NCBI GenBank assembly: GCA_021802045.1
Contig: JAKABB010000014.1
Span: forward strand, 1-40,683
Origin: a bacterium
Lineage (GTDB): Bacteria; Chloroflexota; Dormibacteria; Aeolococcales; Bog-877
DNA length: 40,683 nt
Direction of reading: 5' to 3'
Part shown: one piece after another, positions 3,991 to 40,683 of the stretch
Numbering within the stretch: the stretch's first letter is position 1
Layout of the letters: each line of letters opens with the position of its first letter
Made by a program: the position numbers and the translations under genes
Notes under the pieces: model-generated
Told to the model about the DNA's origin: nothing
The model's database searches: none
The model's input: the letters and a program-made list of their open reading frames with translations, nothing else

Positions 3991-4416
3991 TCACTCCGAC
4001 AGCAGCTCCACCGGCAGCCCCGCGGCCGTCGCCGCGTGCGCGAAGGGCCCATCCAGGGTCCAGACCACCCCACCGAGCCGCTCGGCCAGGCTGACATAGG
4101 CGCAGTCGGTCGCGTGGCGGCGCCGCAGCAGCTGGGCGATCGCCAGCGAGCGAGGTCCGTCCCCCGTGGCCTCAAATGGATGGACCGTGATCCCAAGGGC
4201 GTCCAGGTTGGTCCAAACGACATCCGCCTCGGCCATGGTGAGCGCCCCGGCCCACACCTCCCGGGCGAGGACGTTCATCACCTCGTAGGGCATCACCGCC
4301 GGCGCATGGCGCTCCTCCCCGGCGGCGACCCATCCCCGGTACTGAGCTTGAGCGGCCGCCTGGCGTGGGTCGGGGGTGAACAGGGCGACCACGATCCCGG
4401 CGTCGACGACGACCAC
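3991..4416 (-). CDS. vapC: PIN-domain ribonuclease toxin (VapC family)
   Basis: A 141-residue single PIN-domain protein. The acidic residues expected at the metal site are visible: Asp5 in VVVVDAG, Glu45 in PYEVMNVL, Asp104 in ATDCAYVSLAERL and Asp122 in WTLDGPF. The GTG start at 4416 is chosen because GGAG lies 7 bases upstream and the first strand of a PIN domain starts immediately; the longer ATG version would overlap most of the antitoxin gene with an implausible Arg/Ser-rich extension. It lies 4 bases after the antitoxin stop, the standard antitoxin-toxin order. VapC toxins cleave tRNA or rRNA; the target here is unknown. Confidence 0.88.
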   Translation of the reverse strand: MVVVDAGIVVALFTPDPRQAAAQAQYRGWVAAGEERHAPAVMPYEVMNVLAREVWAGALTMAEADVVWTNLDALGITVHPFEATGDGPRSLAIAQLLRRRHATDCAYVSLAERLGGVVWTLDGPFAHAATAAGLPVELLSE

Positions 4417-4420
4417 CCCG

Positions 4421-4678
4421 CTACTCCGGCTCGCCCAGACCTCGCCGCACCGCGTGGACGAGCTGGACGGCGTCGATCGCGGGCTTCCCTGCCGCGAGGG
4501 CCCCGAGCCGCTCCAGAGCGACGAGCGCCGCCTCTGCCTGCGCCGCTCCGGCCTTGGACAGGGAGCCGTGGAGCAGCACCTTGGCAAGGGTCCCCGGCCG
4601 CATTCCCAGGTTTCTCGCCTCCCCCTCAAGACGCTCGTAGTCCGGTACCTCGAGCCGGATCGTCACTGGCTTGGTCAT
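4421..4678 (-). CDS. vapB: VapB-like antitoxin
   Basis: An 85-residue protein beginning MTKPVTIRLEVPDYERLE, a ribbon-helix-helix-like strand and helix, followed by an Ala/Leu-rich helical tail (residues 45-80) suited to wrapping the toxin. GGAG and AAGGA sit directly upstream of the ATG. It precedes vapC by 4 bases. As in the family, it should neutralise VapC and autoregulate the pair. The exact DNA-binding subtype (CopG/RHH versus another VapB fold) is uncertain. Confidence 0.78.
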   Translation of the reverse strand: MTKPVTIRLEVPDYERLEGEARNLGMRPGTLAKVLLHGSLSKAGAAQAEAALVALERLGALAAGKPAIDAVQLVHAVRRGLGEPE

Positions 4679-23690: not shown

Positions 23691-24750
23691 GTGTGATCCG
23701 GCGCTGCAACGGCGAGGGGTCGATCTCCCGGACGACCGCCGGGCGGTGGGTCGCCGCGATCACGTGGTCAACTGGGCGGCGACAGGAGTGGTACGCGAAG
23801 TGCCGGACCGAGGCGGCCCAGCGCCTCGCGGAGGCGCTCCACTCCCAGGGCATGGGCGGATAGGGCGCTGGCCTGCGCCCGCGCCTGCGAGCAGACGCCT
23901 GCTTCAAGCAGCGGCCGGAAGCGGTGGAGCCAACCACGCGGTCTCGCACCTGGCAACGGTATGAGGAACTCGCCCAACTCCACGCCATCCCATCGCTCGG
24001 GTGCATTCCCTTGGCGCGCCTCGGTCCCAGGACCTTCGACGCCGCTGTGCGGCTGCAGCGGCTCGTGGGCCGAGCCCGCTGAGCGTTCGCTGGCTCCATA
24101 TGGTCCTGCACCAGGCGCTCCGGCAGGGGGAGCAGTGGCGGATCCTCCCCCGGGCCCCGGCCGCCCTCGTCGACCCGCCCAGGGCCCCGCGAACTGAAAT
24201 GCGCGTGCTGGATCCAACCCAGGTGCACACGCTGCTCGACGCGGCCCACGGGAAGCGTCTGGAGGCCCTGCCCGTCCTGGCCCTGGCAGCGGCACGCGCC
24301 AAGGGGAGCTGCTCGGCCTGCACCGGCGCGCCGTAGACCTCGACCGCGGGGTCCTGGCGGTCACGGGAACGCTCCGGATGCCACCTGGGCCGGCTGGGAT
24401 CGGGTGCGGTCGGGGCACTCCGCCAGCACCGGACCGCTCAGGCGGCCGACCGCCTCCGAGCCGGTTCTGCACGGGCGGGCGAGGACCTGGCGTTCGCGAG
24501 CCAACTGGGGCGGCGGCAGGATGCCCATGAGATCGGGCCCACGTTCGCGCGCCCACTTCGCGCCGCCCGGCCCCCCCGGATCAGGCTCCACGACTCTCCG
24601 GCACGCCGCAGCGACACTCCTCCTGGGGCAGGGGTCCATCCGGCGGCCACCCTCGACACCCGCTCGCGCGTGGCAGCCGGGATGCACCGGATGGCGGCCG
24701 ACACCCTCGGTACGGTGCTCCGCCCGCTCCCCTCCGGGACGGCCCGGGGA
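23691..24750 (+). pseudogene. int: Degenerate tyrosine recombinase (phage/ICE-type integrase)
   Basis: Pieces in different plus frames line up in order along one integrase. The arm-binding domain is GEGSISRTTAGRWVAAIT with TEAAQRLAEALHSQ (about 23700-23860). The core-binding domain is SRTWQRYEELAQLHAIPSLG and LHMVLHQALRQGEQWRILPR (about 23940-24150). The catalytic start is RVLDPTQVHTLLDAAHGKR (24200 onward), then, in another frame, RQGELLGLHRRAVDLDRGV (about 24297). ADRLRAGSA and LRHAAATLLLGQG follow, then MHRMAADTLGTVLRPLPSG near 24740. At least four frame changes are needed. The nucleophile segment reads TLDTRSRV where functional integrases have TxDTYSHV, so the Tyr is Arg. Non-functional. 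Confidence 0.8.
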
Positions 24751-25225: not shown

Positions 25226-25435
25226 ATGGCTAACGAGCAAGACCTCCCACGGCTGCTTTGGCGCCCGGACGAAGCCTGGCAGATATTGGGCATCGGGCCC
25301 ACCACGGGCTGGAAGTTGGTGCGCTCCGGCGAGCTCGAAGTGGCCCGGATCGGCGGTTGCACCCGGATCCATGATATGGAGCTCCGCCGATTCGCGGCAG
25401 AGCAGGCTGGCCTCGCGATTGAAGAGGTTGGCTGA
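25226..25435 (+). CDS. Excisionase/AlpA-like helix-turn-helix protein
   Basis: A 69-residue single-domain DNA-binding protein of the MerR-like HTH_17 class: RPDEAWQILGIGPTTGWKLV (residues 13-32) is the HTH, and SGELEVARIGGCTRIHDMEL with a final helix forms the wing. Such proteins serve as excision or directionality factors or as copy-control regulators in integrative elements. Its stop overlaps the next gene's ATG by one base, so it is coupled to the replication ATPase. The perfect inverted repeat just upstream is its likely target. Confidence 0.82.
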   Translation: MANEQDLPRLLWRPDEAWQILGIGPTTGWKLVRSGELEVARIGGCTRIHDMELRRFAAEQAGLAIEEVG

Positions 25436-26685
25436 TGAGGCCGCGAACAGCCAGCGAGCCAAGCTGGGCCGACCTGGACAGCCAGGCACTCGTCGGGGCC
25501 GATGGCTCCGGGGCCCGACCGAGTCCGGACCTGGCCGTCACCGCCGAGGACTTCTGCGTTGTCGCCGCCGACGAGCTGGTAGAGACCATCCTGCCGGCGC
25601 TCGGGCTGGTCGCGGGCGCGATCACCGACATCGACGGCGCACCCAAGGTGGGGAAAACGACCCTTGTGCTCGCCGCGGTGCGCGCCATCACCACCGGCGG
25701 GCAGTTCTTGGGCGATCCCTGCCAACCGGGGGCCGTCGTGCTGCTCTCCGAGGAGGGCCCGGCGACCCTCCGCGAGGGCTTGACCCGGGCTGGGCTGCAT
25801 CACTCCCACGATCTGTACGTGGTCGCCGGGATGGCCGCCCGCCGCTGCCCGTGGCCAGAGCTGATGACGCAGGCCGTGGCCTTCGCTCAGCGGGTCAGCG
25901 CGACGGTCCTGATGGTGGACACCCTCCATGGCCTGGCCGGGCTGGACGCCGACGCCGAGAATGACTCGGGCGCGGCCCTGGCCGCGATGGCCCCGCTGCG
26001 GTCGGCCGCCGACGCCGGGCTCGCGGTGCTGATGCTGCGGCACCAGCGGAAGTCGGGCGGAGCCGTTGGCGAGTCCGGGCGAGGATCGTCCGCCTTCGCC
26101 GGGGCGGTGGACACGATCGTCGCCATGTCCCGGCCGGCGGGGGTAACCAACCCAAACGTCCGACGGCTGACCGCCGTGTCCCGCTTTGAGGGGGTGCCTC
26201 CAGAGCAGGACATCACGTGGCGGGGTGGAGAGTTCGTTGCGCTGGGTGTGCCGGCCCAGCACGAGGCGCGGGAGGTCGAGGTCGCGATCCTGGCTGCCAT
26301 CCCGGGCACCGCCGCCGACGCGGTGACCGCTGGGCAGGTGGCGGATGCCATCCCGCGGCTCTCGGTCCGCCGGGCCAAGGAGCGGCTCGAAGAACTGTTC
26401 CGGCGGGACCGCATCGGGCGCCTCGGGTCGGGCGTCAAGGGGTCGCCCCACAGCTACTACCGCCCCGACCAGCACTTGCCTGCGAAGTTTCCTGCGACCA
26501 GCACCGCAGGCTCGCAGGAAACGCCAGGGTTGATCTCACAAATACCTGCGGGAGCCGTTCCGCAGGCATCCGCAGGAAAACCAGGCCCTCGGTTTCATGC
26601 GGCGGGGGCCCCCCCTACGGGGGGAACCCCACGCCCGCAGGAAACCTCCCGGGGTGGCCTGTCCGGCGGCCAGGTGGAGTTGTGA
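25435..26685 (+). CDS. RepA-like AAA (RecA-fold) ATPase, putative replication protein
   Basis: A 416-residue protein. Residues 45-270 form a RecA/DnaB-type ATPase of the AAA_25/RepA group: Walker A GAPKVGKTT (68-76), LLSEEGP (103-109), Walker B VLMVD (158-162) and a sensor-like MLRHQRKSGG with GRGSSAFAGAVD. Residues about 285-350 look like a winged-helix domain (VADAIPRLSVRRAKERLEELF). The last 65 residues are Pro/Gly/Ala-rich and disordered, and their DNA is full of CGCAGG repeats. Plasmid RepA proteins of this group are replicative helicases. It follows the HTH gene directly. A role in replication of an integrative element or integrated plasmid is inferred. Confidence 0.82.
   Translation: MRPRTASEPSWADLDSQALVGADGSGARPSPDLAVTAEDFCVVAADELVETILPALGLVAGAITDIDGAPKVGKTTLVLAAVRAITTGGQFLGDPCQPGAVVLLSEEGPATLREGLTRAGLHHSHDLYVVAGMAARRCPWPELMTQAVAFAQRVSATVLMVDTLHGLAGLDADAENDSGAALAAMAPLRSAADAGLAVLMLRHQRKSGGAVGESGRGSSAFAGAVDTIVAMSRPAGVTNPNVRRLTAVSRFEGVPPEQDITWRGGEFVALGVPAQHEAREVEVAILAAIPGTAADAVTAGQVADAIPRLSVRRAKERLEELFRRDRIGRLGSGVKGSPHSYYRPDQHLPAKFPATSTAGSQETPGLISQIPAGAVPQASAGKPGPRFHAAGAPPTGGTPRPQETSRGGLSGGQVEL
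26479..26645. repeat. Iteron-like cluster of CGCAGGAAA in the 3' end of the RepA-like gene
   Basis: The core CGCAGG (or CCTGCG) occurs eight times in 167 bases. Four copies carry the extended CGCAGGAAA: minus at 26488-26496, plus at 26513-26521, 26571-26579 and 26636-26644. The first pair forms a perfect 11-base inverted repeat (GTTTCCTGCGA at 26487-26497, TCGCAGGAAAC at 26512-26522). CCTGCGG/CCGCAGG (26545-26551/26560-26566) forms another. Copies fall in different reading frames, so protein repetition does not explain them. This is what an iteron replication origin would look like, placed inside the initiator-like gene. Confidence 0.6.
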
Positions 26686-27695: not shown

Positions 27696-28388
27696 ATGAC
27701 CCGGACCCCCTTCGGCGCGGCGGTGATCGCGGCCGGCCTGGCCCTGGCGGCCTGCGGGCCGACCACCACTCCGCCGCCGCCGGCGCACGCTTCTGCGTCG
27801 CCGACGGCCCGCACGACCGCTAGCCCCACCCCTCGACCCCTCTCGGCGGTCGCCGCCGACGCGCAGGGCTTCGCCGCCTGGGAGCGGTCGTTCGTGGTGC
27901 TGACAGGGCCGATCCCGCCCAGCTCCCGCCCCGCCGCCGCCCGCGAGCTGATCGTGCTGGGCCGCACGTTCGCCCCGCCCGGGGTCCGCCGGGCGGTTGG
28001 CTCCGGCCATCCCCTCGTCGAGACTCCGGCGGGGTGCACAGCGACTGTGTGGCACGTCGCCGGCGCGTTTAGGGCGCCCGCCCTCGCCCCGCGTCTGGCG
28101 GGTGCCGGGCCGATCGCCCTCGTCGTGCGCGGTGCCGGCGCCTGCCGGACAGAAGCCGGCGGGGTGGTCTACATGGCGGTCCCCGCTGACGCCGCGCCCG
28201 CGACCTGGGTGGTGCTCGGGGGTCTCGTCCGGCTCCCGCGGGTGCCGGGAGTCGCTGGGCTCCCCGCCCTGGTCTGGCGGCCGATGGATCTGGCGACCTG
28301 CTCGACCAGCTGGGTGTCGTACGCCGCGGCGGCGTTCGGCACGGCGGCTGATCCCACTGGGAGGGTCCCTGGATGCCCCGCCGGCTGA
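27696..28388 (+). CDS. Secreted lipoprotein of the conjugation region
   Basis: A 230-residue protein. The start at 27696 (GAGGTG upstream) gives a classical lipoprotein signal: MTRTPFGAAVIAAGLALAAC with lipidation Cys20. A Pro/Ala/Thr/Ser-rich spacer (21-50) follows, then a Cys-containing outer domain (about 55-230) that I do not recognise. Lipid-anchored small proteins are common in T4SS operons (VirB7-like roles), but no homology shows that here. It is the first gene after the promoter and overlaps the next gene by 16 bases. Confidence 0.7.
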   Translation: MTRTPFGAAVIAAGLALAACGPTTTPPPPAHASASPTARTTASPTPRPLSAVAADAQGFAAWERSFVVLTGPIPPSSRPAAARELIVLGRTFAPPGVRRAVGSGHPLVETPAGCTATVWHVAGAFRAPALAPRLAGAGPIALVVRGAGACRTEAGGVVYMAVPADAAPATWVVLGGLVRLPRVPGVAGLPALVWRPMDLATCSTSWVSYAAAAFGTAADPTGRVPGCPAG

Positions 28389-29488
28389 GTCTCGCCGCCG
28401 CCGCCCTGCTCGCGGCCAGCGCGGTCGTCTGGGCGGCGCCCCCCGTCACGGCCGCGACCAAACGGACACCCCCCTGCACCAGCCTGGGTGGCACCTGCTG
28501 GTCCCCTACCTCCTCCACGGTGAGCGCAGCCGCGGGCATCCCGGGCAGGCCGCCGCTCGACCCGCCCGGGACCAGGTCGGTGCCGACCGGGACCGTGGTG
28601 GTCCCGCCGAGCTGCCCGACCACGCAGTGGGTGGGCGAGCCGGTGAATGTCGTCGCGCGGGCCGCCGTCTGGACCAGCCCCACCGGGCAGACCGGGCTCA
28701 TCCACATCCCCCCTGGCCAGGAGAGGGTGACTGTCGGCCCCTGGCCCCTTGGGGAGTACAGCGTCGTGATGGAGTACTCGCGGACGCGGACCGCGCGCCA
28801 CCCCTGCACCTACTCCTTGTGGGTGGCGCAGGGGTTCGTGGGGGTGCCCATCGCCTTCCCGTCGCCGACGGCCAAGACCCCGGGGGTCGCTGCGGCCCTC
28901 AAGGGCCTGCGGGCGAAAGTGTTGAAGCACCTCATTGGTGGCCACGTCGAGACCGCCCCGCCCCTCCACGCCCTGGTCTGGTTGCCCACATTCGTGTGGA
29001 TCGCCGGCGCGAACCTGCCGGCCCAGGGGCTAGCCGACACCCTGGGCACCGACACCAAGACCGTCCTCGGCCCACCCGAGGCGGGCGGCCGCCGCCTGGT
29101 CTTGACCGTCGCACTCTCGTTGGTGCGAGCGGGCGTGGTCTGGTGCTGGGGCGAGGTCGGTGGCTGCCAGTTCGTCGCGTCGCCGGGGTCCATAGGCCAG
29201 CCCTTTGTGTATCCGGGGACGGGCGGCCTCTCGCACACGTACTACCAAGTGAGCGTGCACGGGGCGCGCGTGAGCCCCTACCCCGTCGTGAACCCGCAGG
29301 ACGAGATACCCATCTCTGCGCGGCAGATACTGGTGGCGCGCGCGTGGGTCGTGTGGACCGACGCGTTCGGCCGCCACGTCGCCCCCCTGGGGTCGCTCCA
29401 GCTGTCGTTGAGCGCCGGCCCCCACTGGATTGTCATCGGCCAGGTGGAGGGCGTGCCCTACTGCCCGAGCACGACAAGTTGCGGATAA
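28373..29488 (+). CDS. Secreted protein of unknown function
   Basis: A 371-residue exported protein. Residues 1-27 form a Sec signal peptide (RRLSLAAAALLAASAVVWA, cleavage near TAA-TK). The mature part is beta-rich with eight or more Cys, Gly/Pro-rich turns and repeated WV/VW strands, like surface Ig-type domains, but I recognise no family. GGAGGG sits 8 bases before the start, inside the end of the lipoprotein gene, so the two are coupled. Its place in the transfer operon suggests a surface or mating-contact role. Confidence 0.65.
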   Translation: MPRRLSLAAAALLAASAVVWAAPPVTAATKRTPPCTSLGGTCWSPTSSTVSAAAGIPGRPPLDPPGTRSVPTGTVVVPPSCPTTQWVGEPVNVVARAAVWTSPTGQTGLIHIPPGQERVTVGPWPLGEYSVVMEYSRTRTARHPCTYSLWVAQGFVGVPIAFPSPTAKTPGVAAALKGLRAKVLKHLIGGHVETAPPLHALVWLPTFVWIAGANLPAQGLADTLGTDTKTVLGPPEAGGRRLVLTVALSLVRAGVVWCWGEVGGCQFVASPGSIGQPFVYPGTGGLSHTYYQVSVHGARVSPYPVVNPQDEIPISARQILVARAWVVWTDAFGRHVAPLGSLQLSLSAGPHWIVIGQVEGVPYCPSTTSCG

Positions 29489-29670: not shown

Positions 29671-29828
29671 CCGGCCTCGTTCGAGCGATCCGCCGCGTGT
29701 GGTGGCTGTGGGGCCGGTGGCCGGAATGGCTCGTCGAGCGGGGGACGGCGCGAGCCACTCGCGCCATCGCGTGGGCGTTTCCGCCCGTGGGTCCGCCAGA
29801 CCCGCGGCACGCGGAGGATGCGCGATGA
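29667..29828 (+). CDS. Small 53-residue Trp-rich basic protein
   Basis: Starts in the ATGA overlap with the preceding small gene and ends in an ATGA overlap with the next, so translational coupling supports it despite its size. The N-terminal half is amphipathic and Trp/Arg-rich (RAIRRVWWLWGRWPEWLVER), which may be peripheral at the membrane. Unknown function. Confidence 0.55.
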   Translation: MTGLVRAIRRVWWLWGRWPEWLVERGTARATRAIAWAFPPVGPPDPRHAEDAR

Positions 29829-30517
29829 GCGCCAGCGCCGCGGAGTGGCGCTTCGCGTTCGGCGACTCCAGCCGCCCCACGCTGCGCCCCACGCTGCGCG
29901 ACGCGCTGCTGGCTGGCGGCGAAGCGCCGCTGTTGACCAGTTTTCACCGGGAGGACCGTCGCTGGAAGCAGGACGCACAGCTTGACGCGAGCGACTTGCT
30001 ACGCCGCGTGGCGGTAGAAAATTGGGACAGGTGCGACGCGTGCTGGAGCGCCGCCGCCAACGAGATGCCGTCGCTCGGCGTGGCTGCCCTCGACGCCCTG
30101 CTGGCGTGGTGGTCAGAGGCGTCCGACACGGGCACCGCCGCCCGGCGCGTGGCCCTATGTGGGATCGCGGCCCGAGAGCGGGCGGACACCATCGCCGCGC
30201 AGCCCGCCGCCGCCCCCGAGGACCCTCTGATCTACCACCACCTGGCGCGCATGTGCGTCCCCGACCCCGTGGTGGCGGCTCAGGCGGCGCTGGCGGCCAC
30301 ACTCGCCGTCGCCGCCGCCGTCGGAGTCGGCCCCCGTGAGCATATCGAAGGATGGCAGGAGGACCGGCTGCGCTTCCTCCTCGTCCTCGGCCCGGACCTC
30401 GGTGTGGCGCTGCCACCAACCGATGGCCTCCGCCCCGACCTTGCCGTCCGCGCGCACATCCTCGCGAGGAAGTACCTAGTCGGCCACGCCCCGCTGTACC
30501 CCGCCGAGGCCGCGTAA
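29825..30517 (+). CDS. Hypothetical helical protein of the transfer operon
   Basis: A 230-residue soluble, Ala-rich, predominantly helical protein beginning MSASAAEWRFAFGDSS at an ATGA overlap. It has a CDACW pair near residue 72 and many Trp and Arg residues, with no membrane segment and no motif I know. The position just before the TrbL-like gene suggests a cytoplasmic helper of the transfer system. Confidence 0.6.
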   Translation: MSASAAEWRFAFGDSSRPTLRPTLRDALLAGGEAPLLTSFHREDRRWKQDAQLDASDLLRRVAVENWDRCDACWSAAANEMPSLGVAALDALLAWWSEASDTGTAARRVALCGIAARERADTIAAQPAAAPEDPLIYHHLARMCVPDPVVAAQAALAATLAVAAAVGVGPREHIEGWQEDRLRFLLVLGPDLGVALPPTDGLRPDLAVRAHILARKYLVGHAPLYPAEAA

Positions 30518-30522
30518 CCCTC

Positions 30523-32349
30523 ATGTTTTCCTGGCTGGACTCCGTCGGCAAGATCATCAGCGGGCTCGTCTACCAGCTGTTCAACCCCCATGGCTTCGTT
30601 CACGATCCCGTTGGGGTCCTGTGGGCCTTCTTCCTCCACACCTTCCTGGGCAGTGTCCACAACCCCAACTCGCCCCTGGGGTTCATCTTCCAGACGATCA
30701 CGGGGACGCTCAACCCCGTCGATTACAAGGTGATCCCCAAGCTCTACGCCGTCATGGTGCCGGTGGCCCTGGCGGCGATCACGGTCGCGACCGCGGCGCG
30801 GTACTTCACCTTGATGAAGGACTCCAAGATGGCGCCGGGCATGGCCCTCTTCGACGTGCTGCCACGGTGGCTCATCTGCACGCTCCTGCTGGCCCCGGGG
30901 ACCAACTTTGCCTTCGCGTTCTACGGGTTCGTCGTAGGCGCGTTCTCCCAGATGTTCGGAGCGATCACCGTGGCGCTCCTGTCCGTGAACGCCGCCGGGG
31001 GCCTGGTCACCACCGCGATCAGTGCCCTGCTGGCGGATGTGGCCACGGGCGTGGCAGCCTTCCTCATGCCGGGAATGCAGCCCGTCGCGAGCGTGCTGCT
31101 CATCCTCGCCATCTCCCTCCTCGCGCTCATCCTCTGGCTGGGCGGGCTCTTGCTCATGCGCACGGTGTCCCTCATCTTCGGGCTCATCTTTCTGCCGCTG
31201 GCGCTCGCCGTGGGCGTGTACGACACGCGCAACGGCTTCTTCCAGTGGTGGCTGGGGAGCGTGATGGGGGCCTTGGTGGCGGGATTATTCGGTGGGGTGG
31301 GCTTCGCGGTGTCGTTGGACGTGGCCGTGAACGCGCCCGGTGGGGTGAGCCCGTTCCATGCGTTGATTGCCATCTTCCTCATGGATGCTGGGCTGTTCGT
31401 CTCGATCAAGGCCGTGCAGGCCGCCGAGGGCGGCGCCTTGCATGGCGCAGGCATGGGCATCGCGGGTCTCGTGGAGATCGCGGCGCTGAGCCCGCGCGCG
31501 CTCCGCAACGTGGTCGGGGATCGTATCGGCCAGCGCCCGGGCGCGGCGTGGCCGAGCCGGCGCGGCCGTCAGGCGGCCGCAGGCGACGGAGGGACGGGTG
31601 GCCCACCCGGCGGCGGGGGCGGAGCCGGCGGTGGCGGTGGTGGCGGCGGGGGCTTCGGCGCGGGACGGAGGGGTTTCGTGGGCCTGCTGACGCCGCGCCA
31701 CAACGTGTTCGCGGATGGCGTCGGGGTCGCGATGACCGCCGGCGTCGGCGCGGCCAAGGGGGCGCTGCGCCCCGGGGAAGGCGGCCGCCCTCGGAGCGTG
31801 GTTCGCGGCCTGCAGCAGGGCTACCGGACCGGCCTGGGTCGCGGCACAGTCGAGGATTCCGAGGCCCTGTTCGCGAAGAGGACGGGGGCTGGACGCCGGC
31901 AAACGGCCGGCATCGACGCGCGGCTGGCCGGAACCGAGAGCGCGATGAAGCAGCGCCACGCGACGATCCTGGCCCAGGCGCAGACGAGCGCCGCCGCCGC
32001 CCGGGCCGGGTCCCGCGACCCCGAGGTCGGTGCTTGGGCCTCCTCCCAGGGCCTCGCGGGCCCACCCGCGGATCACCGGGCGCGCTTCGCTGACGCGCAG
32101 CTCGCGGTAGCCGAGGGCCGGGTCGAAGCGGAGCGCTCGGAGTTCACCGCCGCCGCGGGCCACATCCGCCACGGGGTCGCCGGGCAGAACCTCAGAAACG
32201 ACCAAGGCCACGTCCACCCGGGCCTCCCCGGCCGGCTCGGGCGCCTGAGCCCGGCCCAGGAAGCGGCCCTCAAGCAGCGACTGACCGAACTCGACCACCG
32301 GTACGGCGCGGGGGACGGTCGGGCTCCCACCGAGGGGGAGAGCCCGTGA
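30523..32349 (+). CDS. TrbL/VirB6-like polytopic membrane protein of a type IV secretion system
   Basis: A 608-residue protein. The first about 330 residues hold seven or eight hydrophobic helices (for example LYAVMVPVALAAITVA, VASVLLILAISLLALIL and FHALIAIFLMDAGLFV), the layout of TrbL/VirB6 inner-membrane channel components. A Gly-rich linker at about 360-385 (nucleotides 31600-31670) joins a hydrophilic, Ala/Arg/Gln-rich, probably helical C-terminal domain to about 608. Start at the ATG at 30523, six bases after the previous stop; the ribosome site is weak. The family call is by topology, size and context, not a sequence signature. Long soluble tails are known in Gram-positive VirB6 proteins. 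Confidence 0.7.
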   Translation: MFSWLDSVGKIISGLVYQLFNPHGFVHDPVGVLWAFFLHTFLGSVHNPNSPLGFIFQTITGTLNPVDYKVIPKLYAVMVPVALAAITVATAARYFTLMKDSKMAPGMALFDVLPRWLICTLLLAPGTNFAFAFYGFVVGAFSQMFGAITVALLSVNAAGGLVTTAISALLADVATGVAAFLMPGMQPVASVLLILAISLLALILWLGGLLLMRTVSLIFGLIFLPLALAVGVYDTRNGFFQWWLGSVMGALVAGLFGGVGFAVSLDVAVNAPGGVSPFHALIAIFLMDAGLFVSIKAVQAAEGGALHGAGMGIAGLVEIAALSPRALRNVVGDRIGQRPGAAWPSRRGRQAAAGDGGTGGPPGGGGGAGGGGGGGGGFGAGRRGFVGLLTPRHNVFADGVGVAMTAGVGAAKGALRPGEGGRPRSVVRGLQQGYRTGLGRGTVEDSEALFAKRTGAGRRQTAGIDARLAGTESAMKQRHATILAQAQTSAAAARAGSRDPEVGAWASSQGLAGPPADHRARFADAQLAVAEGRVEAERSEFTAAAGHIRHGVAGQNLRNDQGHVHPGLPGRLGRLSPAQEAALKQRLTELDHRYGAGDGRAPTEGESP

Positions 32350-32873
32350 CCTCCGCCGCGCCGCGATGGCCGCTCGGACTGATCCCGACCAGCGCCTGGG
32401 GGTCGGCGGGCCGGACAGGCATCCCCCCGGAGGCATGGGGCGTGGTGCGCCGAGCCTGCTACGCGCGTGCCCACCACCGCTGTGAGGCGTGCGGGGCGAA
32501 CGGCCGCCTCGAGGCGCACGAGTGGTATCAGTGGGATGACGCTCGGGGGATTCAGCGCCTCGGGCGGATCGCGGCGGCCTGTCCCACCCACCACGCCGCA
32601 GTCCACCTCGGCCGGACCCGCTCCCTCAGCGGCTCGGATCGGGCTGCGCGCGAGGCGCTGGCTGAGCTGGCGCAAGCCAACGGCTGGAGCGTGCCCCAGG
32701 CGGCCCTTTACGCAAGACATGAACTGGCGCTGTGCGCCGCGCGGTCGAAGCGCCGCTGGACCCTCGACCTCTCGGCCTTGGCGGAGTTTGGGATCGCGAT
32801 CCCCCCCGTGCCGGGAGGCCGTCACGGCGGCCAGCGCGGCTGGCTGGCTCGGCTCCTCGGAGGGGGAAGATGA
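32346..32873 (+). CDS. HNH-type endonuclease or HNH-like Zn protein
   Basis: A 175-residue protein starting with GTG in a GTGA overlap. The His-Me finger is visible: Cys46-x2-Cys49 (RCEACG), EAHEW with His58/Glu59, and CPTHHAAVHLGR (79-90), which gives the second metal ligands and active-site His residues. EAHE followed by YQWD and a CP-x-HH segment resembles a group of HNH proteins in actinobacterial mobile elements. It may nick element or recipient DNA, or act in defence; relaxase-like nicking by an HNH protein is known in some elements but not shown here. Confidence 0.75.
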   Translation: MTSAAPRWPLGLIPTSAWGSAGRTGIPPEAWGVVRRACYARAHHRCEACGANGRLEAHEWYQWDDARGIQRLGRIAAACPTHHAAVHLGRTRSLSGSDRAAREALAELAQANGWSVPQAALYARHELALCAARSKRRWTLDLSALAEFGIAIPPVPGGRHGGQRGWLARLLGGGR

Positions 32874-33316
32874 GCCGCCCGCCGGTGCCGAAGGCGGGCC
32901 ACTCCCAGCATTGGGCCGACAAGCTCGCTATCTGGCTGATGGCCGCCGTCGGGGCCGTGTGGGCCGCCGGCTGGGTGGTGTTGACCCTGGCCGGCGCGCG
33001 GCCCCAGCCCAACCCGCTCGGCGCGATCGTGAGACTGGCCCACGCCGCCCGGGCCGCGGTGCTCAGCCGCCCCACCCCTGGGGGCTGGGTGGCGATCTGG
33101 TGGGCGCCGGCGCGGCCTGTGTCCGAGCCGGGGGTCGCGGTGGTGATCGCCGGCCTGCTCCTGGCCGCGCTGACCGTGGCCTGGCTCGTGCGCCGCGTGA
33201 CGAAGTGGTGGGAGGCGCGCCGGGGGGGGGGCGGTGGGTCCACCCCGGGGTCCGTCACCGGGACCGGCCAGTCGCTCGACGAGTGGCTCGCCGAGCAGCA
33301 GGGGGCCGACTCGTGA
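32870..33316 (+). CDS. Two-helix membrane protein, possible anchor subunit for the coupling ATPase
   Basis: A 148-residue protein with GGAGGGGG upstream and ATGA/GTGA overlaps on both sides. Membrane helices lie at about 20-43 (LAIWLMAAVGAVWAAGWVVL) and 85-104 (VAVVIAGLLLAALTVAWLV), followed by a cytoplasmic tail with a Gly5 run encoded by ten consecutive G bases (33222-33231). VirD4-type proteins normally begin with two such helices separated by a short outside loop; here the ATPase (37149-38756) lacks them, so this gene may be the split-off anchor. That is an inference. Confidence 0.65.
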   Translation: MSRPPVPKAGHSQHWADKLAIWLMAAVGAVWAAGWVVLTLAGARPQPNPLGAIVRLAHAARAAVLSRPTPGGWVAIWWAPARPVSEPGVAVVIAGLLLAALTVAWLVRRVTKWWEARRGGGGGSTPGSVTGTGQSLDEWLAEQQGADS

Positions 33317-36300
33317 CCCGCGCCCGCTCCGTCCTCGGCGTCGGGCTCCTCGCGGGTGGGGTGGCCAGCCTGCTCGCCCTCGGGAGCGCTCCCCCCGCGC
33401 GGGCTGCGCTGCTGACGCCCGCGACCGCCACGGCCTGCGGCTGGAACGGCAGCACCTGCACCAAGGGGAATCCGCGCGGCTGGAGCTTCGCGGATCACTC
33501 CAGCCACCCCTACCAGCGGTACGGGCCGACGACGAACTCGGCGTTCAACCCTGAGGCCCTCACGCTCTACCCGACCGCGTCCGGCACCTGCGGAAGCTAT
33601 TGGTACGTGTACGTCATCGGCGACTTCGGTGGCGGGACCACCAACCATTGGGTGTACATCGGCTGGACGGCCCCCGGCACCAGGAACCCCCCGTGGCACT
33701 TTTCACAGAAGTCCCCGGACTTCGCCTCGGGCCATCCCAGCCCGTTCTGGTCGGCGAGCGGCAATCCCGGGGCCAACCCCCTGGGGGCCACGGACCACCT
33801 CGGCGGCTCCGTGCAGGGGCACATCACGATCTGGACGGGCTTCACCGAGGCGTGGAGTGGTAACTGCCTGCAGCTGCCGGATCGCACGATCTGGGCTGAC
33901 AAGTACCCGACCGGTGCGGCGACCATGGACCTGTATACGGACACCAGTCCACCCGCGACCCCGGCCCCCCGGGTGACCACCGAGCGGGCGAATGGGGCGA
34001 CGTTCACCCTCCCCGGCCAGACCGACCCGGGGAACGGGGGCGGCGCCAACGCCTACGCGGCGGGCATGAACCAGTGGCAGGTGTGCTGGTGGTCACAGCC
34101 GACCGGACCGGGCCCGTCATCCCTGGGCGGCTGTCCGAGCTGGGCCCCGCCCCATACCCTGGACGCCGGCAACGGGGTCAACGCCGTCCAGAGCGCCCCG
34201 CGGGCGGCCGGGGACTGGCTCGTGCTCTGTGCGCAGGCGTGGGACAACCTCTGGAACACCACGGGGGTGATGGGCTGCACGGCCTCGCCGCCCCCCTCGC
34301 CGTCGCCCCCGACCCTGACCGCCGCTCCGGCCTCCCCAGTCGCCGTCGTCACCACCGTGACCCTCACCGGCACCCTGGGAAGCGGCATCCCCTCGTCCAC
34401 CTGGGGCCAGTGGGCCCTCGCCATCGTCCCCGCGCAGAGCACGGCGCTCCCCGCCGACTGCCCCACCCTGCCGTGGGCGCTCGCGAGTGCGGGGTCGATC
34501 ACGAAGATGGTCACGGCCAGTGTGCCGACCGACACCACCTACGTGGTGGTGGAAACCCCGGTCGGGCACGGCAGTGAATGCACGCCGGGGAACCCGGTCA
34601 CCGTCCAGTGGCGGGCGCTCCCACCCGAGCCAGGGGCCGGGCCCACGATCGGGGTCCAGACCGGCCCGTACACCCCAGCCCCCGCCGATCCCCTGGCCAT
34701 CACCGGCCTGCCGCAGAACTTCTGGGTCACGCACCCACCCGCCCGCGTGGTGACCACCACGGTGGGCTACGACGGGACGCTCTATCGCCTCACCTACACC
34801 CCCACGGCCATCACGTGGAGCTTCGGGGACGGGGGGACGGCGACCTTTGCGGGGAGCCAGCTCGCCGCCGGCTGGGGCGCGCGGCCGTCCGGCTCGTCGG
34901 TGTCCGCGGTCCAGCACAGCTACCAGACGGCCACGGAGACGGAGAGCGTCTCGGGGAGCGTGGTGACGGTCCACCCCAACCCCCTGACGTTTGCGGCGAC
35001 GGCCACTTGGTCCGTGGCCTGGCGGGAGGAATCGACGGGGCTCTCCGGCACCTACGGGTCGCCGGTGACGAGCGCCGGGTCGAGCACGGTGGCGGTCCAG
35101 CAGCTCCAGTCGGTCTACGGCGGGTGCGGCGCGCTGACCGCGACTCCGGCATCGCCGGAGCCCGCCGGGACCACCGAGACGCTGACCGTGGCCGGCGGCA
35201 CGTGCGTGCCGGCGGGCTCACCGTACCTCTTCGTAGTGTTCCCGCCCGGCAGCAGCTCGGGCCGGGTCATCACCTCGGGGTCGAGCCCGAGCGCCACCTG
35301 GGCCACGGCCGGGCTGACCCCCGGGGCCTACACGCTGCAGGTCCAGATCGAGCCGCCCGGGGCGACGCAGTGGCAGCTCCTGGCGACCGCGCCCTTCGCG
35401 TTGACGGCGCCCGTCTGCACGGGGCCGACCCTGACGGACGCCCCCGCGGGCAACGTCCCCGTGGGGGGGACCACCGACCTGCTCGGGGCCGCGATCTGCC
35501 CCGCGGGTGCGACCCCCTCCTATCGGTTCACGGCCACGGCGGTCACGGGCACGGTCACGACGATCAAGGACTGGGGCCCAGCCTCGCACACGGCCTGGAA
35601 CACCACCGGGCTTGCCGCCGGGAGCTACACCGTGACCATGACGGTGGCCACCGCCCCGGGCGGACAGGGGCCGACCACCACGGCGTACCTCGGCGTGGAC
35701 GTGGTGGCACCGAGCTGCACCGGGGCGACAATCACCTCGGGCAGCGGACCCTCGCTCCTCCGGGCCACGGCGGATGCTCTCTCGGCCAGAGCCACCTGCA
35801 CGGTTCCGTCGCTGGTGACCTACCAGTGGACGGCCAACCCGCCGGGCAGCGCCACGTGGCTGATCCTGGGCACGACCACGTCCCCGACCTTTGCGTGGAC
35901 CCCCGGGGCCACGGGCCTGGGGGGCTACACCCTGGGGGTCACGGTCCGCGATGGGACCGCCGATCCCGGGACCAGTGCCACGAGCTCGGTCTTCGTCTAC
36001 GACAACCCGGGCCTGTTCGTCCCGGTGTCCGCCTTCCGGGCCTGTGACACCCGCCCGAACTCCGGCTATCAATGCGCGGGGCAGGCCCCGGGCCCCGAAG
36101 GGACGCTGACCGTCCAGATGACCGGCCGGGGCATTCCGTCCGCGAACGTCGCGGCCGTCGCCGTCAGCGTGAGCCTCATCGCTGGCGGAAGCAACACGAA
36201 CGTGGCCATCTACAACCCGGCGGTCCCGGTGACCTCGACCCTCAGCGCGACGGCGGCGGCCCACACGGTCACCAGCACCTTCGAGATCGTGCCCGTCAGC

Positions 36301-37152
36301 CCAAGCGGGACCATCGCCCTCACGAACAATGCCCCGACGACCACGCAGATCATCATCGACGTGGAGGGCTGGTACGCGGCAGCCCCGACGGCCACCTACA
36401 CGAACGCGGGGCGGCTCGTCCTGGTCACGCAGGGGCAGATCGCCGGCTTTCAGGCCACCACCGCCGCGTCGGCGGTGCCGGTCCTGGGCCAGGGCGGCGT
36501 GCCCACCACCGGGGTGTCCGCCGTGCTGCTGGACGTGTACGCCACCACGGCGCCGAGCGCCTGCCCGGCGACAGCGGACCCTGCCGGGGGATCGGCGGGC
36601 ATCTCGACCATGCTGTACGAGAACACGGGAGTGCCGGCCACGGCCGAGATGCTCGTCCCCGTCGGCGCCAACGGGCAGATCCTCTGGAAGAACTGCGCGA
36701 ACGGGGCGTGGGTCGGGGTGGCCGTCCAAGGCTATGTCGAGTCGGGGGCCGCCGCCGGATACAGCAACGCCGGGCTGTACCAGGCCGCGTCGCCCACCCA
36801 GGTGACCTCGAGCTGGTCGTACAACAACCTCCGGCCGGGCCAGAGTTGGAGCGTGCCCGTCGCGGGGGCCGGTGGCATCGCGCCGATTGGGGCCTCCGCC
36901 GTCGTTGCCACCGTGGTGGCCCAGGCGGACTGGGCGGCGGGCCCCGTGCGCTGGGGCCCCAGTGGCGGAACCACGAACTATGCCATCGACCTCTACGGCT
37001 CCCGGGTTGGGTGGCTCACCGGGTCGGGCGCCATCATCCCGCTCGGGGTGGGCGGCCAGGCCGCGGATATCTACGACGCCGGGTCCCGGGGGGCGGTCAA
37101 CGTGGCCGTGTTCACCAGCGGGTGGTTCACTGGCCGGGCGGGGCCGCCATGA
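33313..37152 (+). CDS. Giant secreted multidomain (PKD/Ig-like, triple C-terminal module) protein
   Basis: A 1279-residue exported protein starting with GTG in a GTGA overlap. The Sec signal covers residues 1-31 (cleavage near ARA-A). The N-terminal 220 residues are rich in Trp, Gly and Cys. A PKD-like domain holds WSFGDGG (502-508). Three tandem Ig-like units of about 98 residues each begin at Cys605, Cys702 and Cys802. From about 902 three modules of about 120-125 residues follow, ending in VEGWYA, VAVQGYVES and FTSGWFTG and starting with FVPVSAFRACDTRP; this type occurs in large surface proteins of high-GC bacteria. There is no LPXTG or C-terminal anchor. It probably works as an adhesin or mating-contact protein. 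Confidence 0.78.
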   Translation: MTRARSVLGVGLLAGGVASLLALGSAPPARAALLTPATATACGWNGSTCTKGNPRGWSFADHSSHPYQRYGPTTNSAFNPEALTLYPTASGTCGSYWYVYVIGDFGGGTTNHWVYIGWTAPGTRNPPWHFSQKSPDFASGHPSPFWSASGNPGANPLGATDHLGGSVQGHITIWTGFTEAWSGNCLQLPDRTIWADKYPTGAATMDLYTDTSPPATPAPRVTTERANGATFTLPGQTDPGNGGGANAYAAGMNQWQVCWWSQPTGPGPSSLGGCPSWAPPHTLDAGNGVNAVQSAPRAAGDWLVLCAQAWDNLWNTTGVMGCTASPPPSPSPPTLTAAPASPVAVVTTVTLTGTLGSGIPSSTWGQWALAIVPAQSTALPADCPTLPWALASAGSITKMVTASVPTDTTYVVVETPVGHGSECTPGNPVTVQWRALPPEPGAGPTIGVQTGPYTPAPADPLAITGLPQNFWVTHPPARVVTTTVGYDGTLYRLTYTPTAITWSFGDGGTATFAGSQLAAGWGARPSGSSVSAVQHSYQTATETESVSGSVVTVHPNPLTFAATATWSVAWREESTGLSGTYGSPVTSAGSSTVAVQQLQSVYGGCGALTATPASPEPAGTTETLTVAGGTCVPAGSPYLFVVFPPGSSSGRVITSGSSPSATWATAGLTPGAYTLQVQIEPPGATQWQLLATAPFALTAPVCTGPTLTDAPAGNVPVGGTTDLLGAAICPAGATPSYRFTATAVTGTVTTIKDWGPASHTAWNTTGLAAGSYTVTMTVATAPGGQGPTTTAYLGVDVVAPSCTGATITSGSGPSLLRATADALSARATCTVPSLVTYQWTANPPGSATWLILGTTTSPTFAWTPGATGLGGYTLGVTVRDGTADPGTSATSSVFVYDNPGLFVPVSAFRACDTRPNSGYQCAGQAPGPEGTLTVQMTGRGIPSANVAAVAVSVSLIAGGSNTNVAIYNPAVPVTSTLSATAAAHTVTSTFEIVPVSPSGTIALTNNAPTTTQIIIDVEGWYAAAPTATYTNAGRLVLVTQGQIAGFQATTAASAVPVLGQGGVPTTGVSAVLLDVYATTAPSACPATADPAGGSAGISTMLYENTGVPATAEMLVPVGANGQILWKNCANGAWVGVAVQGYVESGAAAGYSNAGLYQAASPTQVTSSWSYNNLRPGQSWSVPVAGAGGIAPIGASAVVATVVAQADWAAGPVRWGPSGGTTNYAIDLYGSRVGWLTGSGAIIPLGVGGQAADIYDAGSRGAVNVAVFTSGWFTGRAGPP

Positions 37153-38756
37153 CCCTGCGGGAGCGGTGCGCCCAGCTCGCCGACCAGCTCCGCGGCCGCC
37201 CGCCGGACCCGAGCGCCCGGACGGCCGACGGCGTGCTGCTCCCGCCCCCGGGCGTCCACGCGTCGAACCTGGGGCTGTTCCTTGGGTGGAGCAAAGACGC
37301 GCGATGGGACGCGACGGGCCGACCCCGCCGGGCCGAGTGGTGGCTGGATGGCGTCTTCGGCGGCGCGCGCCAGGTCGGGAACGTCTCGACCGTGGAAGCC
37401 ACCGCGGGGGTCATCGCCGGCCCCGGCGGCGGGAAGTCCGCCGGCTGGCTGGCCGGGGTGGTCGGCCTGATCCCGTGGCCGGGCCCGGTGGTGGTGTGCT
37501 CGACGAAGATCGACCTGGCCCAGTGGACGGCGCCCGCCCGCGCGCGGCTGGGCCCGGTCGGCGTGCTGGACTGGCGGGGGTCCCAGGCCGCGGCGCTGCC
37601 CTGGCCGCGGGTCCGGTGGTCGCCGCTGGACGGCTGCGCGGACGAGGACCTCTGCCTCGACCGGATCGAGTCGATGGTCGAGACGACCGAGCTGGGCGGC
37701 CCACGCGGGGAGGAAGTCTGGCGGGCCAACGCCGTGAGCGTGGTGGCCGCCTACGTCCACGCGGCGGCCCTGGAGGGCAGCGGCGTGGAGCGGGTGGTGG
37801 GCTGGCTCCGCCGGGACGAGCTGGAGGAGCCCCAGCGGATCATCGCCGCCGCTGGCTCCCGGGCCGGATTCGGCCAGACCCTGCAAGCCTTCGCCGGCAA
37901 GGCCGAGGAGACGCGGCAGAGCATCATGCACACCGCCCGGCCAGCCCTGGCCGCGCTGGACTCGTCCACGGTGGTGGACGCCTGCACGCCGGACCCGAGC
38001 GATCGCTTCGACATCGACCGCTTCCTCAACTCGTGCGGCACCTTGTATATCTGCGACAAGGGCGGCAAGGCGACCGTGAGCAAGAACGCACCCCTGACGG
38101 TCGCCGTGTTGAACGCGATCCTCGAGCGCGCTGAGCAGCGGGCGGAAGCGACGCCCGCCGGTCCGGGCCGGCTTGCCGGCCGCGCCGATCCGCCCCTCCT
38201 GCTCGTGCTCGACGAGATGGCCCAAATCTCGCCCCTTCCGAACTTGACCCAGGTGCTCAGCCAGGCCCGCGGCCGGGGCATCACGGTGGCCTGGGGGGTC
38301 CAGAGCTGGAGCCAGCTAGAGCGCTGGGGGGAGGCGGGCGCGCGGGCCATCTGGGACACGACGGCGTACCGGCTCATCGGCGCCGGGTTGCAGGACATGG
38401 ACTTCCTGACCGCCGTCAGCAAGAGTCTCGGGGAGCGGCAGGTGTGGCGGCCCTCGGTCGGCTCGACGAAGCACGGCGGCTCGGGGAGCGGCGGCAGCAG
38501 CTCGGGGAAGTCCGAGAGCCACACGTTGGTGGAGACGCCCGAAGTGAAGGCCAGCACGCTGGCGAAGTGGCCCGCCGGCGCCGCGGTCCTGCTGGGTCGG
38601 GAGGGCTGGCGGCCAGTCCTGCTGCCGGCCCTGCCGGCGCTGGAGCCCTTCCGCTCGCGGATGGGGGCGGGCGCGCCGCCGGCCCCGGCCATCGCCCCCC
38701 CGCTCGACCCGGCGGAGGGTCCCGAGGACGAGCCGGCGGTGGAGGAACCGGCATGA
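37149..38756 (+). CDS. TraG/VirD4-family type IV coupling ATPase lacking membrane helices
   Basis: A 535-residue ATPase. Walker A GPGGGKS lies at 91-97, followed by VVVCSTKIDLAQWT, where VirD4/TraG proteins have their conserved post-Walker segment. Walker B LLLVLDEMAQ (350-359) continues as ISPLPNLTQVLSQARGRGIT, typical of the TraG C-terminal box. GVQSWSQLERWGEAGARAIW follows. A Gly/Ser linker and Pro-rich acidic tail end the protein. No N-terminal membrane helix is present. The ATGA overlap couples it to the giant secreted protein. It should recruit DNA-protein substrate to the transfer channel; its relaxase partner is not in this window. Confidence 0.85.
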   Translation: MTLRERCAQLADQLRGRPPDPSARTADGVLLPPPGVHASNLGLFLGWSKDARWDATGRPRRAEWWLDGVFGGARQVGNVSTVEATAGVIAGPGGGKSAGWLAGVVGLIPWPGPVVVCSTKIDLAQWTAPARARLGPVGVLDWRGSQAAALPWPRVRWSPLDGCADEDLCLDRIESMVETTELGGPRGEEVWRANAVSVVAAYVHAAALEGSGVERVVGWLRRDELEEPQRIIAAAGSRAGFGQTLQAFAGKAEETRQSIMHTARPALAALDSSTVVDACTPDPSDRFDIDRFLNSCGTLYICDKGGKATVSKNAPLTVAVLNAILERAEQRAEATPAGPGRLAGRADPPLLLVLDEMAQISPLPNLTQVLSQARGRGITVAWGVQSWSQLERWGEAGARAIWDTTAYRLIGAGLQDMDFLTAVSKSLGERQVWRPSVGSTKHGGSGSGGSSSGKSESHTLVETPEVKASTLAKWPAGAAVLLGREGWRPVLLPALPALEPFRSRMGAGAPPAPAIAPPLDPAEGPEDEPAVEEPA

Positions 38757-39040: not shown

Positions 39041-39243
39041 GCCGCCCGAGCGGCTGCGTGGCGGGCCTGGTGGTGGGGGTGCTGCTGGGGGCCGCCGGAG
39101 TGGTGGCCGGGCCGCCGGTCGTGCGGAGCGGCCTCCGGGCCGCCGTGCCCGTTGTGGAGACCGGCATCCATGAGGCCGTGAAGACGGTGGAACACCTGGC
39201 GCCGACGGCGCCGCCCAAGCCGGGGAGGAAGGCGCATGGATGA
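39037..39243 (+). CDS. Small single-pass membrane or exported protein
   Basis: A 68-residue protein with a hydrophobic segment at 8-29 (VAGLVVGVLLGAAGVVAG), then a short amphipathic helix and a basic Pro-rich end. The ATGA overlap upstream and 8-base overlap downstream place it firmly in the operon. No family recognised. Confidence 0.6.
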   Translation: MSRPSGCVAGLVVGVLLGAAGVVAGPPVVRSGLRAAVPVVETGIHEAVKTVEHLAPTAPPKPGRKAHG

Positions 39244-39850
39244 GCACGAGAGCGGCCCGGAGGGGGAAGAGGCCGCGCCGCCGTCCCCCGCCTGGTCCCC
39301 ATGGAGCGACCTCCCGCCCGCGTCCCGACCCCGCGCCCACGGGGCCTTGATCGCCTGGGTGCGGGACACGCTGCAAGCGGGGTGGCCGGAGCCGGCCGTC
39401 CCCCTCCAGCCCTGCTGGCCCGCCCACGCGGACGCCGTGGCCGACTGCCGGGCGCTGAAGGCCAAGCTGGACGCCGCCCAGGCCCCGCCGGTCAAGGACG
39501 GCCGGATCGGCGCGGCTCCGGTCGGGCGGTGGCTCGACTGGGCCGTGGACCTGGAGCGGGCGTCGGACCGCTGGCGGACCAGCTTCAAGCGCTGCAGCCA
39601 GGACACCTGCTACCGGGCCACGCCGCCCGATCACGTCGCGCTGGAGGCCGCCCAGGCGGGCGTGGCGACCCCGGCGGCGGCGCAGGCGGCCTGGGGCGTG
39701 GTCCCGGTGGAGCCCGAGGCTGGGCCGGAGCCCTGGGAGGTGGCGGCCGTCGCCGCCGCCGTGGCGCGCCAGGCACAGACCGCCACCGGACCCGAGGAAG
39801 CGGAGGCCGGGGCGGATGCGGCCCCGGCGGACCTGGCGGAGAGCTGGTGA
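39236..39850 (+). CDS. Hypothetical acidic helical protein (possibly DUF4913-like)
   Basis: A 204-residue protein. The central part contains CWPAHADAVADCRALKA and RWLDWAVDLERASDRW, then FKRCSQDTC. The Trp/His/Cys spacing recalls DUF4913, a family of unknown function found next to transfer ATPases in actinobacterial plasmids, but the match is weak. The N-terminus and last 60 residues are Ala/Glu/Pro-rich and probably disordered. Overlaps its upstream neighbour by 8 bases. Confidence 0.55.
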   Translation: MDEHESGPEGEEAAPPSPAWSPWSDLPPASRPRAHGALIAWVRDTLQAGWPEPAVPLQPCWPAHADAVADCRALKAKLDAAQAPPVKDGRIGAAPVGRWLDWAVDLERASDRWRTSFKRCSQDTCYRATPPDHVALEAAQAGVATPAAAQAAWGVVPVEPEAGPEPWEVAAVAAAVARQAQTATGPEEAEAGADAAPADLAESW

Positions 39851-39935: not shown

Positions 39936-40463
39936 ATGAGCTTGGAGATCACGCCGATCCTGGCGCCGCCGCCGGCCATGGACCCGGCGGACCAATGCGT
40001 CGAGGTCGGGCTGGTCGGGATCGTCGAGCCGTGCTATCGGTGCGGCAAGCCCCGGCGGGCCATCGCGGGCGTCGTCGTGGAGAAGGACGCCGCGCAGGCC
40101 TATCTCGGCCTCGGGGACGATCTCTTCCTCGACTTCGAGTCCGTGGCGGCCGCCTTGGAAGACGTGCTCGATCCCGCTTGGCTGAAGCAGCAGCAGATCG
40201 GCCCCCTGAAGGTCCGGCGGTCCCGCCAGCGGCCCGACGGGTACCTCGCGAACGGCTGCGTCTGGTGCGACACCATCATCGGCTCGTACCCGCTCAGTGA
40301 GGCGGTCGGGGCGATTGGCATGGACCGCTTGCCCGAGCACGTCTTCGCGCGCGCCCTGCTCCCGCTCGACGCGCTGCGCCAAGCGGCGAGCCCGTGGCTC
40401 GGCCAGGGCGGCTGCGGCCCGGACTGTGACTGCGGGGCCAACGCTCGGGCCGACCACTCGTGA
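39936..40463 (+). CDS. Hypothetical protein with Zn-ribbon motifs
   Basis: A 175-residue protein with a strong AGGAGG site. Three Cys groups are visible: CYRCG (33-37), GCVWC (about 106-110) and CGPDCDCG near the C-terminus (about 159-166). The YLANGCVWCDTIIGSYPL pattern looks like a family of plasmid and phage proteins of unknown function. It starts 85 bases after the previous gene, the largest gap in this part of the operon, and couples to the next gene by a GTGA overlap. Confidence 0.65.
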   Translation: MSLEITPILAPPPAMDPADQCVEVGLVGIVEPCYRCGKPRRAIAGVVVEKDAAQAYLGLGDDLFLDFESVAAALEDVLDPAWLKQQQIGPLKVRRSRQRPDGYLANGCVWCDTIIGSYPLSEAVGAIGMDRLPEHVFARALLPLDALRQAASPWLGQGGCGPDCDCGANARADHS

Positions 40464-40683
40464 GCGGCCCGAGCGCCGGCGAGCTGGAACTGCTGCGCGC
40501 GGCACGCGACGCCGCGTGGCGGACCCGCGAGGGCTGGGTGGCGGCTCAGGTCGGCAGCCTGGGCCGCTCCCTCGGCGACGTGGCCGCCGACCCGCGCGGG
40601 CGGGAGATCGAGGCCGAGGCGGCCACGGCGGCGCGCGCCTACCGGGCCGCCTGCCGCCGCCGGTGGCCGGCCCGCCGGCGGAC
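40460..40683 (+). CDS. Hypothetical protein, partial at right edge
   Basis: An open frame beginning with GTG in a GTGA overlap with the preceding stop and continuing to the end of the window (74 codons visible). The visible part is Ala/Arg-rich and helical, with no motif. Translational coupling is the main support. Confidence 0.55.
   Translation, partial: MSGPSAGELELLRAARDAAWRTREGWVAAQVGSLGRSLGDVAADPRGREIEAEAATAARAYRAACRRRWPARRR

Follow-up and report, generated by a model that had tools for sequence, protein, structure and literature searches.

The window, which is the whole stretch of DNA that was analyzed (40,683 nucleotides), is the entire contig C29 of a 3.0-Mb metagenome-assembled genome in 206 contigs. 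The genome is probably that of an uncultured member of Dormibacterota/Chloroflexota from an acid-mine-type source. Its genes are chromosomal in appearance up to about 23.2 kb, and include a pair encoding a PIN-domain-like toxin and an antitoxin-like protein (3991-4678), recognized by sequence only. Beyond that point lie an integrase remnant, replication-type genes, and transfer genes (Table 1). The largest object among them is a stop-free frame that runs from GTG 33313 to TGA 37152 and encodes a protein of 1,279 aa, here called the giant. This ORF has the top coding score within the window, and its GC content by codon position is 0.61/0.65/0.92. The N terminus, MTRARSVLGVGLLAGGVASLLALGSAPPARA/A, reads as a Sec/SPI-type signal, and we predict export by Sec from this signal peptide. 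The frame stays open 5' of position 33313; we place the start at GTG 33313 because of the overlap with the upstream gene and the signal peptide. A chance ORF is ruled out by the length, the codon signal, and the signal peptide, and the exported protein given in the preliminary description is intact.

Table 1. Features of the transfer region (positions in the window unless a locus is named)
Feature	Position	Strand	Basis or remark
Tyrosine integrase, degenerate: split over two reading frames, with an eroded catalytic region	23882-24732	+	tblastn of L101 integrase: 60% then 44% identity, E 8e-51
AAA_25 (RepA/DnaB-like) ATPase, replication module of the element	25435-26685	+	PF13481 1.4e-17
Lipoprotein-like protein, kept in sister element	27696-28388	+	50% identity to L057 14060-14698
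Secreted 371-aa protein with the PKD-like core of the giant	28373-29488	+	Kept in sister element (48%)
Conserved operon protein of unknown function	29825-30517	+	34% identity to L057 homologue, E 6e-11
Polytopic membrane protein; resembles TrbL/VirB6 in topology and position only	30523-32349	+	8 predicted TM
HNH-like protein (pattern C..C..HE..C..H..H), overlapping both neighbors by 4 nt	32346-32873	+	Kept in the other two elements, 52% and 44% identity
Two-TM protein preceding the variable slot	32870-33316	+	34% to L057 9350-9832, E 2e-8
Giant, 1,279 aa, predicted Sec export, slot before TraG	33313-37152	+	ORF, coding score, signal peptide
Signal peptide, residues 1-31 of the giant	33313-33405	+	Sequence
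N-terminal ~580 residues of the giant	33406-35148	+	34% identity to G057:C22 protein
PKD-like core, GLPxxFW...ITWSFGDG...HSY...WSVAW...VQQLQ, residues ~445-612	34645-35148	+	Family in 37/110 class genomes
Three Ig-like units, one Cys pair each, residues 605-896	35125-36000	+	Related region in G059:C49, E 6.5e-23
C-terminal triplet of ~125-aa beta modules, residues 900-1273	36010-37131	+	Module search, alignment, structure prediction
VirD4/TraG-type coupling ATPase, soluble form, no N-terminal TM predicted	37149-38756	+	PF12696 2.7e-26, PF02534 1.1e-16, Walker A GPGGGKS
Conserved element protein downstream of TraG	39236-39850	+	50% to L057, 37% to L058 homologues
Conserved element gene running off the contig	40460-40683	+	64% identity to L057 6522-6731
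VirD4/TraG-like ATPases of tad-type operons in relatives	L106:6789-8099, L107:7504-8823, L108:4176-5498, L109:10990-12306, L112:10097-11866, L113:4053-5837

The giant gene is joined to both of its neighbors by 4-nt overlaps, GTGA at 33313-33316 with the two-TM gene and ATGA at 37149-37152 with the ATPase gene. Two further overlaps of this length lie upstream (32346-32349 and 32870-32873), and the overlap-coupled run comprises five genes, beginning at 30523. These junctions had been taken to mean that the giant is translationally fused into the operon and made in near-stoichiometric amounts with its neighbors. However, nothing is fused; the genes merely overlap. We found the identical 4-nt overlap in 16 of 122 same-strand neighbor pairs on sampled contigs of the window's genome. 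Because such overlaps are common in this genome, they mark an operon and not a stoichiometry.

The two transfer functions assigned to other genes of the operon fared differently in profile searches. The product of 37149-38756 passed them as a VirD4/TraG ATPase, with TraG-D_C and T4SS-DNA_transf domains and Walker motifs in an aligned Walker region. No N-terminal TM anchor was predicted in this protein, nor in its homologues in genomes G011 and G012. The product of 30523-32349 has its eight TM segments followed by a soluble C terminus, and is 50% identical to its counterpart in the sister element described below. A polytopic membrane protein with a long soluble tail in a transfer operon is a TrbL/VirB6 trait, so the topology fits the earlier TrbL call. 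However, Pfam, NCBIfam, and PDB profiles gave low complexity only (NCBIfam 0.12, under the cutoff), and we therefore do not regard the protein as a certain TrbL.

The locus is part of a MobF transfer element. The final 29 nt of the window, within gene 40460-40683, are the reverse complement of the final 29 nt of contig C21 from the same genome. C21 encodes a MobF relaxase (TrwC, 1.3e-64) and an AAA ATPase, both homologous to genes of two sister elements. Their order and orientation are those of the sister element in G011:C40. The relaxase of an integrative and conjugative element is accordingly present on the adjoining contig and in both sisters. The G011:C40 element (about 43.8 to 78.7 kb), from a genome of the same family, is complete. 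It has an intact integrase (at L101; PF00589 1.5e-25), a TrwC relaxase, a DnaB-type helicase, and the gene order of the window. Its 63-bp direct repeats lie 34.8 kb apart, and one of them overlaps a tRNA-SeC gene. The repeats are at L101:3748-3810 and near 18.7 kb of L057, with selA/selB-like genes adjoining. In contrast, the integrase of the window element is degenerate. The gene order at this remnant is that of the circular form of the sister element and not of its integrated form, so the insertion history differs. A third element with a TraG of this subfamily lies in G012. The subfamily has only these three members in 110 genomes of the class, and the next matches are far weaker. A single-sequence TraG search of genome contigs gave no match, nor did viral-contig searches with TraG and with the giant. 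Six further TraG-D_C loci in the window's own genome (G000 contigs C5, C13, C35, C12, C108, and C141) are several transfer-type elements or remnants.

The order of HNH-like gene, two-TM gene, and TraG gene is common to the window, G011, and G012, where the two-TM gene of G012 was matched by position and topology. The HNH-like genes of the sisters are at L057:9829-10344 and L058:10723-11250. The TraG of the syntenic sister is 57 to 58% identical to that of the window. In the window, the slot between the two-TM gene and TraG is occupied by the giant gene; its occupant in G011 is a lipoprotein-like gene of 136 aa. In G012 the slot is empty, and the two-TM gene overlaps TraG directly. The giant is therefore an optional part. 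Its absence from these two elements led us to reject a role as essential T4SS machinery.

The PKD-like domain, the three Ig-like units, and the three C-terminal modules named in the preliminary description could all be located (Table 1). By sequence comparison, the giant is a chimera of a chromosomal-type secreted protein, Ig-like units, and three ~125-aa modules. Residues 32 to 612 align throughout with a stand-alone secreted protein of ~420 aa (e.g., G057:C22, L082:3325-4584) at 34% identity, with ~100 extra residues inside the giant. This stand-alone PKD-like protein resembles the first ~580 residues of the giant but has neither Ig units nor triplet, and its gene is chromosomal, between housekeeping genes of related genomes. 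The PKD-like core itself matched PF18911 at only 0.42. Genes of the core family lie beside tad pilus genes in two cases (G045:C126 and G160:C63, with T2SSE, T2SSF, and TadE matches). The core also occurs in the conserved operon gene 28373-29488, as an iterated profile built without this gene finds its G011 (L057) orthologue at 3e-6. A two-sequence profile-profile comparison of the core alignments was not significant, and plasmid searches with the core and with the 371-aa protein gave no significant match. The Cys pairs of the Ig-like units are C605/C631, C702/C729, and C802/C829. Pfam and NCBIfam searches found no curated adhesion domain in the giant, whether thioester, polymer-adhesin, or other known adhesin domain. 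A single-sequence AlphaFold model of the N-terminal 312 residues was unusable (pLDDT 34).

The C-terminal module follows a rule of three. In the window's genome and related genomes, 53 proteins each carry exactly three strong copies of it. A named-genome set (Actinomycetes, Acidimicrobiia, Dormibacterota, Micromonospora, and others, with five genomes also among the relatives) gave exactly three modules in 47 of 60 ORFs. Several of the exceptions are cut by contig ends, and one has six modules. Module matches were also found in Candidatus Dormiibacterota. The partner domains of the triplet include GH18, C39-like peptidase, pro-kumamolisin, A4 peptidase, TIG, BACON, and fn3. In the giant, modules 2 and 3 have diverged and have lost the DTR motif of the family.

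No Pfam or NCBIfam model covers the module. For the triplet, AlphaFold2 with 39 sequences predicted one confident, all-beta superdomain (pLDDT 88.2, pTM 0.88). Among PDB folds, the globular head of C1q in its single-chain form ranks first (E 3.3e-6), and the trimeric fiber tip Bd2133 of Bdellovibrio is among the lower matches (3.5e-3, prob 1.00). Viral fold matches include phage C1q-domain proteins. Compared with a C1q/TNF-like trimeric head, the model has three confident all-beta modules (E 3e-6, prob 1.00), but the whole-model TM is only ~0.25. Therefore, the module fold is supported, a relation to C1q heads is based on the fold of the single module, and a trimer-like packing is conjectural. 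The constant number of three copies is what would be expected of a single-chain pseudo-trimer. It had been said that the giant has no wall anchor. The C terminus (...TSGWFTGRAGPP) indeed has no LPXTG motif and no hydrophobic or TM tail. However, the triplet is also joined to a wide range of secreted enzymes and is the strongest candidate for a head that attaches the protein to a surface.

Relatives of the giant lie mostly outside transfer loci, an outcome that the preliminary description had named as refuting its reading. A TraG-like gene is present in only 2 of the 69 module loci that we fetched, the window and L060, and the N-terminal ~600 residues match the stand-alone chromosomal protein. 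At L060:339-6725 (G008:C10), a gene for a 1,407-aa secreted triplet protein with fn3 and He_PIG domains is divergent from the TraG gene. On plasmids, Curtobacterium pW21 (L221:9341-15054) encodes a 1,069-aa triplet protein of the cutinase family two genes after TraG and near the relaxase gene. Paenarthrobacter pB (L222:11776-16275) encodes a triplet-RHS protein close to mobC and a relaxase gene. The Streptomyces plasmids examined gave no such clear link between triplet and transfer genes. This plasmid proximity is suggestive only, because small plasmids put any gene near transfer genes by chance.

We favor, at about even confidence, the view that the giant is an accessory surface protein or adhesin of a MobF-type integrative transfer element and aids contact. 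Probably, it is an adhesin added on to the transfer machinery and not a new component of it. In this scenario, the giant would be translated within the coupled operon that ends in the VirD4-type ATPase, from a slot that varies between sister elements, and would be exported by Sec. The N-terminal and Ig-like part would form a stalk. The triplet may fold as one chain into a three-module beta head, whose ligand on the cell surface would probably be a glycan. The ligand-bound head could hold the giant on the producing cell or bridge to its neighbors, and such bridging would raise contact with recipients or surfaces while the transfer operon is expressed. It had been suggested that the giant may be a mating-contact device or a surface part of an undescribed T4SS. 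Our results support a large, secreted, surface-type protein encoded in a transfer operon directly before a real VirD4-type ATPase, with MobF relaxases in the sisters and on the adjoining contig; they do not support a core part of an undescribed T4SS. Several observations speak against the favored view. The complete syntenic sister does without the giant, and the majority of triplet proteins are encoded on chromosomes and have no connection with transfer. The lack of a curated adhesion profile, the low whole-model TM, the broken integrase, the chance proximity of genes on small plasmids, and the lost DTR motif of modules 2 and 3 also count against it.

A rival idea is that the giant is a passenger, a surface protein of the host lineage that was captured into the operon. 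It would then serve the host in attachment, biofilms, or on nutrient surfaces and have no role in transfer. Every part of the giant is frequent outside transfer loci in the host clade, and the slot is empty or otherwise filled in the sisters. However, the gene lies within a transfer operon of tightly overlapping genes and has kept both of its junctions, and the sister has retained the paralogue of the giant's PKD-like core (28373-29488) in the same operon. In addition, actinobacterial plasmids repeatedly carry genes for similar proteins next to T4CP or relaxase genes. We regard a passenger as possible but on the unlikely side.

Some features of these elements leave room for an unusual envelope machine. 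No VirB4 was found in them: PF03135 gave no match, and PF12846 and a plasmid ATPase query gave weak matches elsewhere in the genomes, with the window element incomplete at the contig ends. The third element carries CpaB/RcpC, Tad/TadG, TadE, and CAAX-protease-like genes (L058:1162-8221). Next to these is a gene for a 783-aa membrane protein whose N-terminal domain is a lipoprotein signal peptidase (Peptidase_A8; L058:8223-10574). VirD4/TraG-like ATPase genes also end tad-type operons (TadZ, TadA/CpaF with a T2SSE domain, TadB, and TadC) in order-level relatives, which suggests that the coupling-type ATPase of those operons works with the Tad machine. Because VirB4 was not found, Tad-like genes lie in the third element, and both the PKD-like core and VirD4-like ATPases occur with tad operons, one could imagine a VirB4-less system. 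Here, the MobF relaxase and the soluble VirD4-type ATPase would act with a Tad-pilus-like or unrecognized envelope machine, and the slot would supply interchangeable contact heads. The giant would be a dedicated head that ends in an undescribed single-chain, three-module adhesive domain. The case is weak, since the window element is incomplete, and we consider this system doubtful.

The varying slot beside the coupling ATPase, with secreted or lipoprotein-like products in two elements, would also suit a surface or entry exclusion factor. Such a protein would coat the cell and block redundant mating or rival elements, and would for that reason vary fast. Exclusion proteins are usually small, in contrast to the 1,279 aa of the giant. 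The giant has no homology to any exclusion protein, and the slot of the third element is empty. We consider this role distinctly improbable.

The broken integrase raises the question of decay. The window copy of the element may be decaying, and the two-frame integrase remnant and the divergence of modules 2 and 3 would fit a non-functional operon in which the giant has no present function. However, the giant, TraG, relaxase, and operon genes are intact with a strong codon signal, which makes a functionless giant very unlikely. Least likely of all, and hardly to be expected, is a structural role in a mating channel or an undescribed T4SS: the giant gene adjoins and overlaps the T4CP gene, and the failure of PF03135 and PF12846 to find VirB4 implies that some machinery is unrecognized, but the syntenic sister has the 136-aa gene instead, the third element has nothing, and homologues of the giant are mostly chromosomal.

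If the favored reading as a contact-aiding accessory adhesin is true, adhesins in transfer operons, already known from a few Gram-positive plasmids, would extend to an uncultured lineage, and the element would swap surface modules in one slot by the coupling ATPase. The exact-triplet head, for which no family model exists, occurs widely and is confidently predicted; once named and tested, it would allow many surface proteins of Actinomycetota and Dormibacterota to be annotated.

The same exact three-module unit is found on secreted proteins of those two phyla; they are mostly chromosomal, and modules 2 and 3 of the giant have diverged from theirs. The predicted fold of the triplet resembles the beta-sandwich heads that come in threes in the mosaic adhesive trimer (MAT) fiber tips of Bdellovibrio and in the single-chain C1q head (PDB 8ond and 5hzf). 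However, the three modules are in one chain here, there is no sequence similarity, and the low whole-model TM applies to this comparison too. MAT proteins of Bdellovibrio are surface located, one member binds prey glycans, and Bd2133 is a trimeric adhesive fiber (PMC10769870). A large, secreted, multidomain protein in a transfer operon is a trait that the giant shares with two conjugation proteins. TIE-pLS20 (p34) of Bacillus subtilis pLS20 likewise has Ig-like folds and is encoded in a conjugation operon; it lacks a sortase signal, and how it attaches is unexplained (PMC8092201). The giant differs from it in having no recognized thioester domain, in its other domains, and in not being kept in sister elements. 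The aggregation substance PrgB of Enterococcus pCF10 is also large, has Ig-like domains, and is encoded on a conjugative plasmid. PrgB is an LPXTG wall-anchored surface adhesin (PMC10588982), whereas the giant has no LPXTG signal and its domains are unrelated. We claim no membership in either family; TIE-pLS20 and PrgB are the nearest working analogues of the giant.
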